IMG/VR virus record: IMGVR_UViG_3300005915_000765
Location: 1-20,057 of that record
Source of the DNA: a virus
Strand: one strand, 5' to 3'
Length of the DNA stretch: 20,057 bases
Positions 6,298-19,280 of the stretch are shown in pieces; the first letter of the stretch is position 1, and the number at the start of each line of letters is the position of its first letter. The notes below the pieces were generated by a model. The model worked only from the letters and a program-made list of their open reading frames with translations. It had not been told where the DNA came from and ran no database searches. The translations under genes and the position numbers were made by a program.

Positions 6298-6554
6298 GTT
6301 CTTGGAGTTCAGAGTTGCACAAAGACCAGATAGAACCAACCAAGACAGTCAGTGTGTGGTTAGATAACAGCGAAGAGTTTAGGAAGAAGAACTTCAGATG
6401 TTGCAATTGTGGCTTAATAGTCTTTGACTACTTCTGTGATGTGAGGATTATTATTGTTGGTGGAACACCTACTGTAGAGAATCCCACCAAGGTTTACACT
6501 CATCCTTTAGAGATAATGTGCAAGAGGTGTCGACAAATGTATCGGGTTGAATAG
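6294..6554 (+). CDS. Zinc-ribbon phage protein, 86 aa
   Basis: The start is ATG 6294, which overlaps the terminase stop and has a GGAGG 6 bases upstream; a TTG at 6282 in the same frame is less likely. The protein has a zinc ribbon with ligands at C36 or C37 and C39 (FRCCNCG), then C76-x2-C79 (IMCKRC), separated by a strand-rich segment. Similar small zinc proteins commonly sit beside phage packaging genes. They may act in packaging or transcription, but the role is not known. The -35 box of the first late cassette overlaps its stop codon. Confidence 0.75.
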   Translation: MSSWSSELHKDQIEPTKTVSVWLDNSEEFRKKNFRCCNCGLIVFDYFCDVRIIIVGGTPTVENPTKVYTHPLEIMCKRCRQMYRVE

Positions 6555-6575
6555 TTGAATTGTTAGTGTTAAACT
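6547..6575 (+). promoter_or_regulatory. Sigma70-like promoter before the portal gene (cassette A)
   Basis: TTGAAT at 6547-6552, a 17-base spacer and TAAACT at 6570-6575, with TGT directly before the -10 (extended -10). Five bases later comes AGAGGTTTATACA (6581-6593), matching the box at the expected start of transcription in the other cassettes. Confidence 0.6.
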
Positions 6576-6592
6576 ATTACAGAGGTTTATAC

Positions 6593-6615
6593 AGCCCCCG
6601 TTGAGGGGCTTTTTT
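6593..6615 (+). terminator. Leader hairpin with T-run before the portal gene
   Basis: AGCCCC (6593-6598) pairs with GGGGCT (6605-6610) around a six-base loop, followed by six T's. It has the form of an intrinsic terminator, but lies only 12 bases past the expected transcription start and 12 bases before the portal ATG. It could end read-through from the packaging genes, or act as a leader element. Confidence 0.7.
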
Positions 6616-6622
6616 ATTTAAA

Positions 6623-8515
6623 ATGGCAGCAATAAATACAATCGATGTTCCGGATGAGAAAGAGCGCAAAGAAGAGGGGGCTATTGGTGCAGAAGCAGTT
6701 GTAGACCTTAATGTTTCCGACGCCGAGCTTCGGTCTTTACTTAACTATAAATTGAGAACCAGCGAAGCCTATTGGGAGGAAAAGCCAAGAGACCTCACAA
6801 AAGCAAGAGAAAGAGCTACTAAGTATTGGACTGGCAGATACCAAGAGGATATGGACTTCTTTGGGCATGAGTTTCCTTATGTTGACAATAGAATCTTCAT
6901 GTCATTGGAAACGATCATCCCTATTGCTTTAACACGCCCCCCCGAGCCTTCTGTTGCTCCTGCTAAAGACAATGACGCTTCTAAACAATTAGCTGATGAT
7001 ATTAAGAATATACTATTGGCGAAGTACGAAGAGCTGGGATTGAGGAATAAGTTTAGAATGGCACTAAGGCATTTACTCCTCTTTAGGCAGGGGATATTGA
7101 AATACCGTTGGAATGAGGACTTAGGCGATGGTGGAGATTTTGAGGTTCATTGGGTTCGCCCCCAAAAGGTAGTCATTGATAAAAACGCTGTTGCTGGGGA
7201 GACACCAGGTTTTATTGCCGAATACATGGAAGATACTATTGAAGGGCTTGTGCGGAAGTTCCCCGATAAGAAAGGCGAAATATGGAAGAAGTTTCACATT
7301 ATAAGGGGAACGCAGAGGCAGTTGAGCCAAAGGGTGGGATATTATGAAATGTGGTTTGATTGTGTTGATAAGGACAACGAACCCCAACAGGGTGTTTGTT
7401 GGAAGTGTGAAGAGATTATCTTAGATAAGATGAAGAACCCAAACTGGGATTACGAAGGTGATGAAGATGGCACATATCACAATCATCTACCTAATCCTAA
7501 GATTCCCTATGTGTTCTTGAATCATCTTAATTTAGGGCGGAGCTTCATTGACGACATTGCTTTAGCCGAAGTTGCCTTTCCTCTACAGAAGGTAATTGAT
7601 AAAAGAGGCCAACAGATAGTTCAGAACGCTGATGCCGCTAATAGTGGATGGGTATTTAATAAGGAGTTTATCAGTAAACCAGAAGCCCAAAAGTTAACCG
7701 GCGCTTTCAATGAGAAAGTAGTAGGTGATGGGGATGTAAGGGGTGGGGCAATGCGACTACCACCACCTACCTTACCAGCTTATGTAATTGAAGATAAGTT
7801 TGACGCTAGAAACGAGATTGACAATCTATTAGGTACTCACTCTACTACCAGAGGAGAACGGGGCAAGAAAGAAACTTTGGGTGGCCGGATGTTACTCAAA
7901 GAAGCAGACACCGGGAGGATAGGGGATATTGTTAATTCTGCCATTGAACCAGCCGCTGAGAATTTATACAATGGATTGGTTCAGTTAATGAAGGTATTCT
8001 ATGTTAAAGAGCATTTTGTTAAATATCTAGGCGATGATGGGGAGCAGACATTCTTAGGGTTTGACAGAGACAAGATAGAAGATGGGGTTGAGATTAGAGT
8101 TAAGAGTGGAACGACCATGCCTGCTGATAAGACAAGGGAGCGGGTAGAAGCCCTGGAACTAGCTAAGGGTGGATTGATGGACCCCCTTACCTTGTTTGAG
8201 AAGCTGGACCATGTTAATCCGAAAGAAGAAGCCAAGAGAATGGTTCTATATACTATCGACCCAATGGTTTATTTAAAAGAGATTCTTGGTGTTGAGAGCG
8301 GACAGGATGAGGTAATGAGGGTAATTGAACAGATAAGCAGCGGGGAGTGGGTTGAACCACCCGAGGAAGTCTCTGAAGAGTATTTGGCTAACTATAGTGC
8401 TTTTGTTAAGTCGGCTGACTTCCAAAACCTTGAACCAGAGGTGCAGGTCATGCACACCAAACACTTGGAAATGGCGGCAGGGAAGGCCCGGATGGCTCTA
8501 GGGGAAGGCAGATAG
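6623..8515 (+). CDS. Portal protein
   Basis: A 630-residue protein consistent with tailed-phage portals, which form the dodecameric ring at one capsid vertex through which DNA enters and leaves. Features that fit are the position after the terminase, the size, and an N-terminal region rich in helices with YWTGRYQEDMDFFG and an alternating stem-like middle. A stretch around residues 300-350 (IALAEVAFPLQKVIDKRGQQ) matches the helical core of podovirus and P22-like portals. The C-terminus is acidic and helical. The ATG at 6623 has no adjacent SD and follows TTTATTTAAA directly, downstream of the cassette A hairpin. The TAG stop overlaps a GTG start. Confidence 0.85.
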   Translation: MAAINTIDVPDEKERKEEGAIGAEAVVDLNVSDAELRSLLNYKLRTSEAYWEEKPRDLTKARERATKYWTGRYQEDMDFFGHEFPYVDNRIFMSLETIIPIALTRPPEPSVAPAKDNDASKQLADDIKNILLAKYEELGLRNKFRMALRHLLLFRQGILKYRWNEDLGDGGDFEVHWVRPQKVVIDKNAVAGETPGFIAEYMEDTIEGLVRKFPDKKGEIWKKFHIIRGTQRQLSQRVGYYEMWFDCVDKDNEPQQGVCWKCEEIILDKMKNPNWDYEGDEDGTYHNHLPNPKIPYVFLNHLNLGRSFIDDIALAEVAFPLQKVIDKRGQQIVQNADAANSGWVFNKEFISKPEAQKLTGAFNEKVVGDGDVRGGAMRLPPPTLPAYVIEDKFDARNEIDNLLGTHSTTRGERGKKETLGGRMLLKEADTGRIGDIVNSAIEPAAENLYNGLVQLMKVFYVKEHFVKYLGDDGEQTFLGFDRDKIEDGVEIRVKSGTTMPADKTRERVEALELAKGGLMDPLTLFEKLDHVNPKEEAKRMVLYTIDPMVYLKEILGVESGQDEVMRVIEQISSGEWVEPPEEVSEEYLANYSAFVKSADFQNLEPEVQVMHTKHLEMAAGKARMALGEGR

Positions 8516-8688
8516 TGGACAAAAAGCAAGAAGCAATACAGAAGAGGTTAAAACAGTATTCTTCTGGTAAATGGGAAGAGGTCAATAGCGTTATTGCTGA
8601 ACATAATTCATTGTTTGATGAGGGGGAGATAGATTTTAGCAAAGCGATTAAGGGTATTGTTAAAAGGCTGCGGAAAATTGGTACTTGA
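8515..8688 (+). CDS. Hypothetical 57-aa protein after the portal
   Basis: Starts at GTG 8515 in a TAGTG overlap with the portal stop and ends at TGA 8686-8688. The product is charged and helical (KKQEAIQKRLKQYSSGKWEE and DFSKAIKGIVKRLRKIG). Its position between portal and capsid genes would suit a small head-assembly or connector accessory. The -35 box of the capsid promoter overlaps its stop codon. No family is recognised. Confidence 0.65.
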   Translation: MDKKQEAIQKRLKQYSSGKWEEVNSVIAEHNSLFDEGEIDFSKAIKGIVKRLRKIGT

Positions 8689-8713
8689 CAAGCATTTTAA
8701 AAGTTGATAGTAT
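8685..8713 (+). promoter_or_regulatory. Strong sigma70-like promoter before the capsid gene (cassette B)
   Basis: A perfect TTGACA at 8685-8690, a 17-base spacer and TAGTAT at 8708-8713, with TGA before the -10 acting as an extended -10. AGAGGTTTAGACA follows at 8720-8732, 6 bases past the -10. This is the best -35 of the set together with cassette C. Confidence 0.75.
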
Positions 8714-8731
8714 GCTTGCAGAGGTTTAGAC

Positions 8732-18783: not shown

Positions 18784-18969
18784 ATGACAACAATAGAAAA
18801 CAGACTATTAAACATAGAAAAGGTTATCGGGGCTAAATTACTTAATGGTAATGGTAAAAAGAAGAATGGTAACGGAAATGGCGATAACAAAACTCTTTTA
18901 ATAGTAATAATTGTGATTGAATCTGTTGGTTTGTTATTAACAATATTTAATTTATTTTTAGGGAAGTGA
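18784..18969 (+). CDS. Small single-pass membrane protein, 61 aa
   Basis: A TTG at 18769 is in frame, but ATG 18784 follows the upstream stop directly and is preferred. The protein has a short amphipathic N-terminus, an Asn-Gly-Lys linker (NGNGKKKNGNGNGDNK, residues about 21-36), then a strong C-terminal membrane helix (LLIVIIVIESVGLLLTIFNL) ending in GK. A single-helix holin-like or virion-linked membrane protein is possible. No endolysin is visible in the window, so lysis is speculative. The 51 bases after it (18970-19020) hold only a 12-codon frame and a promoter-like sequence. Confidence 0.6.
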   Translation: MTTIENRLLNIEKVIGAKLLNGNGKKKNGNGNGDNKTLLIVIIVIESVGLLLTIFNLFLGK

Positions 18970-18987
18970 GACAATATGGCAGACAGG

Positions 18988-19015
18988 TTGATTTCTGATA
19001 TAAATAAGTTATAAT
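18988..19015 (+). promoter_or_regulatory. Promoter with perfect -10, placed for a leaderless mRNA
   Basis: TTGATT at 18988-18993, a 16-base spacer and a consensus TATAAT at 19010-19015. The next start codon, ATG 19021, begins 6 bases past the -10, where transcription should start. There is no SD. It has neither the AGAGG box nor the hairpin of the five cassettes. Confidence 0.6.
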
Positions 19016-19020
19016 AGACC

Positions 19021-19203
19021 ATGGTAGAAAAGAAACAGGACAAAAAGGAACAGCCCAAGGAGGCTTTAACGGCCCAAGAGCTAAAACTTTTAGTCAACAT
19101 CATTTCTAAGGCTCAGACCACCGTAGAACAAGCCAATGTGTTTATTATCTTGGCTAATAAGTGTTCTCGACTGGCTCAAGCCCTAGAACCAAAAAAAAAG
19201 TAA
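19021..19203 (+). CDS. Small helical protein, 60 aa
   Basis: A polar, lysine-rich N-terminus (MVEKKQDKKEQPKEALTAQE) precedes two amphipathic helices (LKLLVNIISKAQTTVEQANV and FIILANKCSRLAQALEPK). It may oligomerise through these helices. No family is recognised. The ATG has no SD and sits where a transcript from the TATAAT at 19010 would begin, so it may be translated from a leaderless mRNA. Its TAA (19201-19203) is followed immediately by the -35 of cassette E. Confidence 0.6.
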   Translation: MVEKKQDKKEQPKEALTAQELKLLVNIISKAQTTVEQANVFIILANKCSRLAQALEPKKK

Positions 19204-19232
19204 TTGACTTTTAGGTAAAATTAAAGTAATAT
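19204..19232 (+). promoter_or_regulatory. Sigma70-like promoter (cassette E)
   Basis: TTGACT at 19204-19209, a 17-base spacer and TAATAT at 19227-19232. Unlike the others it has no TGn before the -10. AGAGGTTACACA follows at 19239-19250, six bases past the -10. Confidence 0.65.
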
Positions 19233-19249
19233 CAGTTTAGAGGTTACAC

Positions 19250-19273
19250 ACCCGTCATTTGGCGGGTTTTTTT
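19250..19273 (+). terminator. Leader hairpin with T-run (cassette E)
   Basis: ACCCGTC pairs with GGCGGGT (one G-U pair) around an ATTT loop (19250-19267), followed by a run of seven T's counting the last stem base. Thirteen bases separate the stem from ATG 19281. Confidence 0.75.
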
Positions 19274-19280
19274 ATTTAAA

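Follow-up and report, generated by a model that had tools for sequence, protein, structure and literature searches.

A compact promoter-terminator cassette with a competing hairpin and its possible role as an attenuator of late operons in a phage group

The DNA considered here, hereafter the window, is the 20,057-base stretch of the IMG/VR virus record IMGVR_UViG_3300005915_000765, and it contains five copies of a short cassette in which a promoter is followed almost at once by a terminator-like stem and then by a gene start. Judged from comparison with related phages, the cassette is real, conserved and structurally supported. Its leader, presumed to start (about +1) at an AGA trinucleotide, has three segments: segment 1, the 3-4 nucleotides (nt) after AGA; segment 2, the rising arm of the terminator; and segment 3, the falling arm, followed by 5-8 U. 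Segments 2 and 3 form a sequence-predicted intrinsic terminator ending about 35-40 nt from the presumed start, while segments 1 and 2 form a small hairpin of 3-4 base pairs (bp) that uses bases at the foot of the terminator stem; since both need the same bases, hairpins 1:2 and 2:3 are mutually exclusive. We give slightly better than even odds (about 0.52) to the reading by which the cassettes act as minimal transcription attenuators, each placed where a late operon begins and combining a functional terminator with a 1:2 antiterminator.

Pairing between the start box and the terminator stem

A sequence-only reading of the window had described an AGAGG box at +1. The position stands; the sequence is not fixed, since relatives carry AGAGAC, AGAGTC, AGAAGC, AGAGGC or CGAGGC there. 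The box consists of AGA (or CGA, GGA, TAA) and an arm of 3-4 nt complementary to the foot of the terminator's rising arm, with a loop of 5-9 nt between the two, and the arm pairs found are GGU/ACC, GGUU/AACC, GAC/GUC, GUC/GAC, AGC/GCU and GGC/GCC. A set of 34 cassettes from about 22 contigs was compared, the arm pairs being counted by script; MAFFT alignment misplaces the stems. Arms 1 and 2 pair in all 34, purely by Watson-Crick pairs in 29, whereas swapping arms among the cassettes (5000 trials) gave 24.2 ± 1.3 pairing cassettes (maximum 29) and 14.5 ± 2.1 Watson-Crick ones (maximum 23). Among the 13 arms other than GGT, 12 are Watson-Crick complementary to their own partner, and GGT in their place would be so in three. 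Sliding arm 1 by one position or more lowers the pairing from 34/34 to at most 13. At least nine changes of the arm pair are seen on the capsid tree, including between the close sisters G003 (GAC/GTC) and L072 (GGT/ACC), and shared descent therefore does not explain the pairing. The G009 leaders and L072 have a wobble or mismatch in the terminator stem at places where 1:2 pairs perfectly, so that arm 1 is more than a copy of the falling arm. By these comparisons, the 1:2 pairing is kept by compensatory changes. The earlier proposal of selection on structure rather than on stem sequence is borne out by the relatives, among which the stems are entirely different while order and spacing are unchanged. 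Two of the features by which an attenuator is recognised, a GC stem with a U-run in the leader before the coding region and a covariation-supported alternative pairing that excludes the terminator, were both found.

Other identities of the box were considered and rejected. A Shine-Dalgarno site is contradicted by the AGAGAC, AGAGTC and AGAAGC of relatives and by an ATG about 40 nt away. As for a fixed initial-transcribed motif causing a sigma pause, the sequence follows the stem, and the distance from the -10 to AGA is mostly 5-9 nt, reaching 14 in L062; nor does inspection show a conserved -10-like element in the initial transcribed sequence. The PreQ1-I riboswitch aptamer begins with an AGAGGUU run similar to the box. 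Neither PreQ1 nor another Rfam family gave a credible covariance-model match in the window, and the sequence of the box varies freely, along with that of the stem.

Within one phage the loops of the small hairpin resemble each other more than they do those of other phages (permutation p about 0.004), copies with different arms included: the three copies in G004 have the loops ACAGAAT, ACAGTAT and ACAGAAT with the arms AGC, GGC and GGT. Such similarity is as expected if one factor per phage reads the loops, intragenomic copying being the alternative.

Cassettes in the window and in related phages

All five cassettes lie on the plus strand and read as had been claimed, at 6547, 8685, 12033, 14121 and 19204, with a promoter spacer of 17 nt in four copies and 18 in one, TGn before the -10 in four of five, a box that begins 5-6 nt past the -10 and a stem 11-12 nt past the start of the box. 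In cassette 1 the promoter (6547..6575) has the -35 TTGAAT (6547-6552), 17 nt and the -10 TAAACT (6570-6575) preceded by TGn; the upstream hairpin (6581..6596) consists of AGA (6581-6583), arm 1 GGT (6584-6586), the loop TTATACA and arm 2 GCC (6594-6596), with one G-U pair, and the terminator-like stem (6593-6610; 6593..6616 with the T-run) is followed by the ATG at 6623 of a portal-like gene (6623-8515, plus strand). This layout is matched in L031 and G001. Cassette 2, with the promoter TTGACA-17-TAGTAT (8685..8713), a hairpin (8720..8735) of AGA (8720-8722), arm 1 GGTT (8723-8726) and arm 2 AACC (8732-8735), and a stem at 8732-8749 (8732..8756 with the T-run), precedes the major capsid protein gene (8804..9874, plus strand, ATG 8804) and is the one kept in all close relatives. 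An extra promoterless hairpin with a T-rich tail (8763-8779; 8763..8782 with the tail) stands between it and the capsid gene's Shine-Dalgarno site (AAGGAGG-ATG), and has no counterpart in G001. Cassette 3, with the promoter TTGACA-17-TACTCT (12033..12061), has an arm unlike those of the other window copies, and its partner is altered to match: the hairpin (12068..12083) contains AGA (12068-12070), arm 1 AGC(T) from 12071, a loop and arm 2 (A)GCT ending at 12083, and the stem (12080-12105; 12080..12111 with the T-run) leads to a likely start ATG at 12121. Cassette 4 has the promoter AGGACA-18-TATACT (14121..14150), a hairpin (14156..14169) of GGA, arm 1 GGT (14159-14161), the loop AATTC and arm 2 ACC (14167-14169), and a stem at 14168-14183 (14168..14189 with the T-run) before the ATG at 14196. 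In cassette 5 the promoter TTGACT-17-TAATAT (19204..19232) is followed by a hairpin (19239..19252) of AGA (19239-19241), arm 1 GGT (19242-19244), the loop TACAC and arm 2 ACC (19250-19252), and by a stem at 19250-19267 (19250..19274 with the T-run) before the ATG at 19281. As reported, the ATG comes 12-15 nt past the stem in four copies; the second runs instead into another hairpin.

The window has five places where a good promoter is followed 15-20 nt later by a strong terminator, and 100 first-order Markov copies of it have none (0). Single elements are not enriched there (38 promoters versus 48.8 in shuffles, 16 terminators versus 13.4), and the five strongest terminator-like sites are exactly the five cassette stems. 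Of 41 terminators in related full contigs, 20 are closely flanked by a promoter on the upstream side and by the start of an open reading frame (ORF) on the downstream side, compared with 7/67 and 6/66 in other phages. Promoter precedes terminator in every cassette, never the reverse, and all are on the late strand; the T-run abuts the stem, with 4-8 T within the first 8 nt and at least five T in 33 of the 34.

Every cassette lies at an operon boundary, and these compact genomes have few other strong terminators. Both facts agree with an account as overlapping punctuation, by which the stem would end the upstream operon and the promoter's own transcripts would escape it, through a young elongation complex or sigma still bound, without any regulation. 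We regard this account as improbable: at other operon boundaries of these phages a leaderless promoter stands without a terminator, an ordinary terminator-then-promoter order at 13119 in G011 indicates that the reversed order of the cassette is not forced, and the maintained 1:2 pairing is left unexplained.

Sequences upstream of the capsid gene were taken for most relatives found, without selection for the cassette. The promoter, AGA-like start, stem and U-run are present in all 14 distinct capsid leaders with at least 55% capsid identity, and the cassette is not present before the capsid gene in loci with 45% capsid identity or less. A check of whether the promoter-box-hairpin order is missing in related phages showed that it is kept in close relatives. 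Further cassettes precede portal and tail genes; they occur only among the portal, capsid and tail genes, with none in the early half of the relatives of 30-46 kilobases, and in the window the gene for the terminase large subunit, gpA type (4705..6297, plus strand), has none in front. A strict scan for the whole order gave 13 cassettes in 0.31 megabases (Mb) of the clade and none in either the Patescibacteria contigs (0.28 Mb) or the distant phages (0.81 Mb), with 1 in the unrelated contigs (1.36 Mb). A general bacterial or viral feature was likewise rejected, as among 84 strict promoter-plus-AGAGGT sites in other viral contigs one is near a stem, at the wrong spacing. A first scan of viral contigs with the box pattern returned mostly chance matches and one true relative, L031; with mismatches allowed, the box pattern by itself is noise. 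No cassette was found in the TM7 phage DolZOral124_53_65. In MW202566 (L478), at about 13935-14045 before the capsid gene, the promoter TTGACG-17-TATAGT, a long-loop hairpin (AGCAGTC/GACTGCT), TTTATT and a Shine-Dalgarno site occur in a differing arrangement; this promoter and hairpin are possibly a remote form of the cassette.

Attenuation, other leader functions and known systems

Under attenuation, most RNA polymerases would by default halt at the U-tract and release a short RNA. If hairpin 1:2 were held in place, the terminator stem would be shortened and parted from the U-tract, and polymerase would read into the gene. By folding energy hairpin 1:2, where it folds at all, reaches -0.2 to -4 kcal/mol, and the terminator -9 to -17 kcal/mol; because the former is far weaker it should not win unaided, and a helper is expected. 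The likely switch would be a trans-acting factor that binds the small hairpin, made by the phage, or made by the host and recruited late, and one such factor would open all late operons together. That the factor is phage-encoded is possible, at clearly less than even odds. The sequence-only reading had listed attenuation or antitermination among several options, with a 5' stabiliser and a source of short RNA as others, and this one is strengthened, the box being the 5' arm of a competing hairpin that had gone unseen. A more specific proposal, which we hold to be somewhat doubtful, is that the cassettes represent an undescribed class of small antitermination switch, about 37 nt from the start, at the late operons of the clade, in which a phage-encoded factor would recognise a 3-4 bp hairpin by its shape and loop even as stem sequences change rapidly, and which would act with a second attenuator behind the capsid operon.

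Several points weigh against attenuation. The 34 cassettes were collected manually once the pattern was known, and arm swaps do not model case selection; the unselected capsid leaders show the same arm pairing. The 1:2 helix is weak and so depends on a helper. In nine clade contigs no CAT_RBD domain (PF03123) was found, with controls matched, although the contigs may be incomplete; no NusG-family protein (PF02357) was found in the nine, controls matching in 10, and a host copy is possible; nor did the nine give an ANTAR domain match, where the ANTAR control gave no match either. The shared gene families of the clade, listed for a candidate antiterminator, included no clear one. Across the clade the loops share no conserved sequence. 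A young elongation complex may respond poorly to a terminator only about 35 nt past the start site, and mRNA protection or translation would be served as well by a 5' hairpin with a U-rich sequence and an AUG behind it.

This last point leads to the main rival, which we judge unlikely: the cassette would be a 5' leader for stability and translation, in which the hairpin protects the late mRNA, the U-rich stretch before the AUG aids ribosome binding and termination is incidental. With the falling arm covered by a ribosome, the 1:2 pairing would then preserve the fold while the foot of the stem opens, and 5' stem-loops of late mRNAs are known from phage T7. Most cassette genes have no Shine-Dalgarno sequence, the capsid gene, presumably that of highest output, always has a cassette, the distance from stem to AUG is mostly 11-16 nt, and the phages otherwise seem to use leaderless starts, which makes a leader something extra. 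However, a U-run abutting the stem in nearly all copies is the hallmark of a terminator and not of an enhancer, the promoter-terminator order speaks against a pure leader role, and two capsid leaders (those of the window and G011) run tens of nt to a real Shine-Dalgarno site, yet keep the stem and U-run; a competing 1:2 hairpin would be superfluous for a stabiliser.

Antitermination in cis without any factor was also considered, with the nascent 5' end or its abortive transcripts pairing with the rising arm to give a fixed partial read-through. Antitermination by abortive transcripts has reportedly been described for phage T7 by Lee, Nguyen and Kang in 2010 (cited in PMC11347151). Segment 1 falls within the first 4-9 nt of the transcript, and the pairing is kept although loops vary between phages. 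The 3-4 bp, with the energies given above set against those of the terminator, argue against this explanation, as does the similarity of loops within a phage, which suggests a reader, and we consider it very improbable.

Attenuation by the cassette can be compared with several known systems. The Q protein of phage lambda is loaded at one promoter through a DNA element and a sigma-dependent pause, and its terminator is further away. The cassettes belong to several promoters, and at each of these a competing RNA hairpin goes with a terminator at about +35. The feature shared with lambda Q would be that late genes are off through termination after the late promoter until an antiterminator acts (PMC7171158). 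In LicT and ANTAR leaders a stabilised antiterminator shortens the terminator stem and parts it from the U-tract (PMC3369936). The ribonucleic antiterminator (RAT) of LicT, BglG and SacY shares with the cassette a hairpin in which the 3' arm doubles as the terminator's 5' arm (PMC3369936), but is longer, sequence-conserved, with two internal loops, and bound by a CAT domain, whereas the cassette hairpin has 3-4 bp, changes freely and lies at +1; neither the RAT hairpin nor, in the nine contigs, the CAT domain (PF03123) was found. ANTAR leaders (NasR, AmiR, EutV) likewise have a small hairpin, P2, that overlaps the rising arm of the terminator and is common to several operons of one organism (PMC3369936), but need two hairpins with A1 and G4 loop residues. 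The cassette has one, starting 3 nt from the presumed 5' end with no room for a first, and its loops mostly lack A1/G4, those of G004 and L285 happening to fit. The cassette would work like LicT/RAT or ANTAR leaders, yet does not show the hairpin features tested for either class. The start-associated sequences (SAS) and extended SAS (ESAS) of Cluster K mycobacteriophages are also multi-copy, before the starts of selected genes and accompanied in about half by an inverted repeat, but they have a conserved 13-bp sequence and conserved 17-bp inverted repeats, and the available part of the source describes no promoter-terminator unit or changing stems (PMC3203893). Literature searches found no description of this promoter-box-hairpin arrangement. 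Its logic, as read from sequence, is that of a known kind of device, the leader attenuator, in a form that is new, minimal and multi-copy.

Second element, leaderless starts and the probable host

Eleven relatives have a second element, placed behind the gene next after the capsid gene: a covarying helix enclosing UUGACGAG/UUCAGGA, followed by a stem and U-run. As an alternative to the helix, its 3' strand can form base pairs (5-9 in most) with the arm or loop of the terminator. In seven of the eleven, the helix is 91% paired versus 66% when shuffled, with a covariation of 0.71 versus 0.23. The alternative pairing exceeds the swap null (17.1 versus 14.2 ± 0.7). The window copy (10604-10664) is degenerate; intact ones are found in L004 (about 10313-10380), L009 (about 3327-3400), L336 (about 4035-4110) and L278 (about 6801-6900), and also in L418, L468 and L454. 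The five loci searched gave no Rfam family match, and the internal loop may resemble a kink-turn. This element suggests that the phage group uses attenuator-like leaders more than once.

In clade contigs, TATAAT stands six nt before the ATG, often as TGnTATAAT, in 28 ORFs, compared with 1-5 at most other distances; the window has such a leaderless-type promoter at 18988-19021 (TTGATT-16-TATAAT-agacc-ATG). Two Patescibacteria genomes show a weak peak of TATAAT at the same distance. Much of the expression in these phages may be leaderless, the cassette being a leader added at the same +1.

A comparison at DNA level with 50,697 phage records gave no relative of the window. Of the named phages, the unclassified spring-water phage MW202566 (41%) and TM7 phage DolZOral124_53_65 (39%) come closest in capsid protein. 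A chaperonin gene (Cpn60/GroEL) is annotated in both nearest named phages, at 22216-23658 in L477 (MG269973) and 5695-7646 in L478 (MW202566). The window also contains tail genes, and a large tail-fibre-like protein (14615-18346) repeats the peptide GNVGIGTTGP at 17140-17770, the underlying DNA repeats being near-identical. Four of five capsid relatives from cellular genome collections are in Patescibacteria bins, and a capsid search in 380 genomes of the phylum of G020 returned only the match already known. Patescibacteria are the likely host of the window phage by these matches, and the uncultured phage group with cassettes probably infects these tiny bacteria.

To our knowledge, little is known of gene timing in Patescibacteria phages, most of whose hosts cannot be grown. 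If the terminators work, the cassettes would be among the shortest three-segment attenuators known to us. They offer a search signature for more (promoter, AGA, arm, loop and a terminator whose rising arm matches the arm) and are a likely place to look for a new antiterminator. The late operons of these phages are probably turned on by overriding a terminator, which would give a compact rule, open to testing, for how such phages express their late genes.

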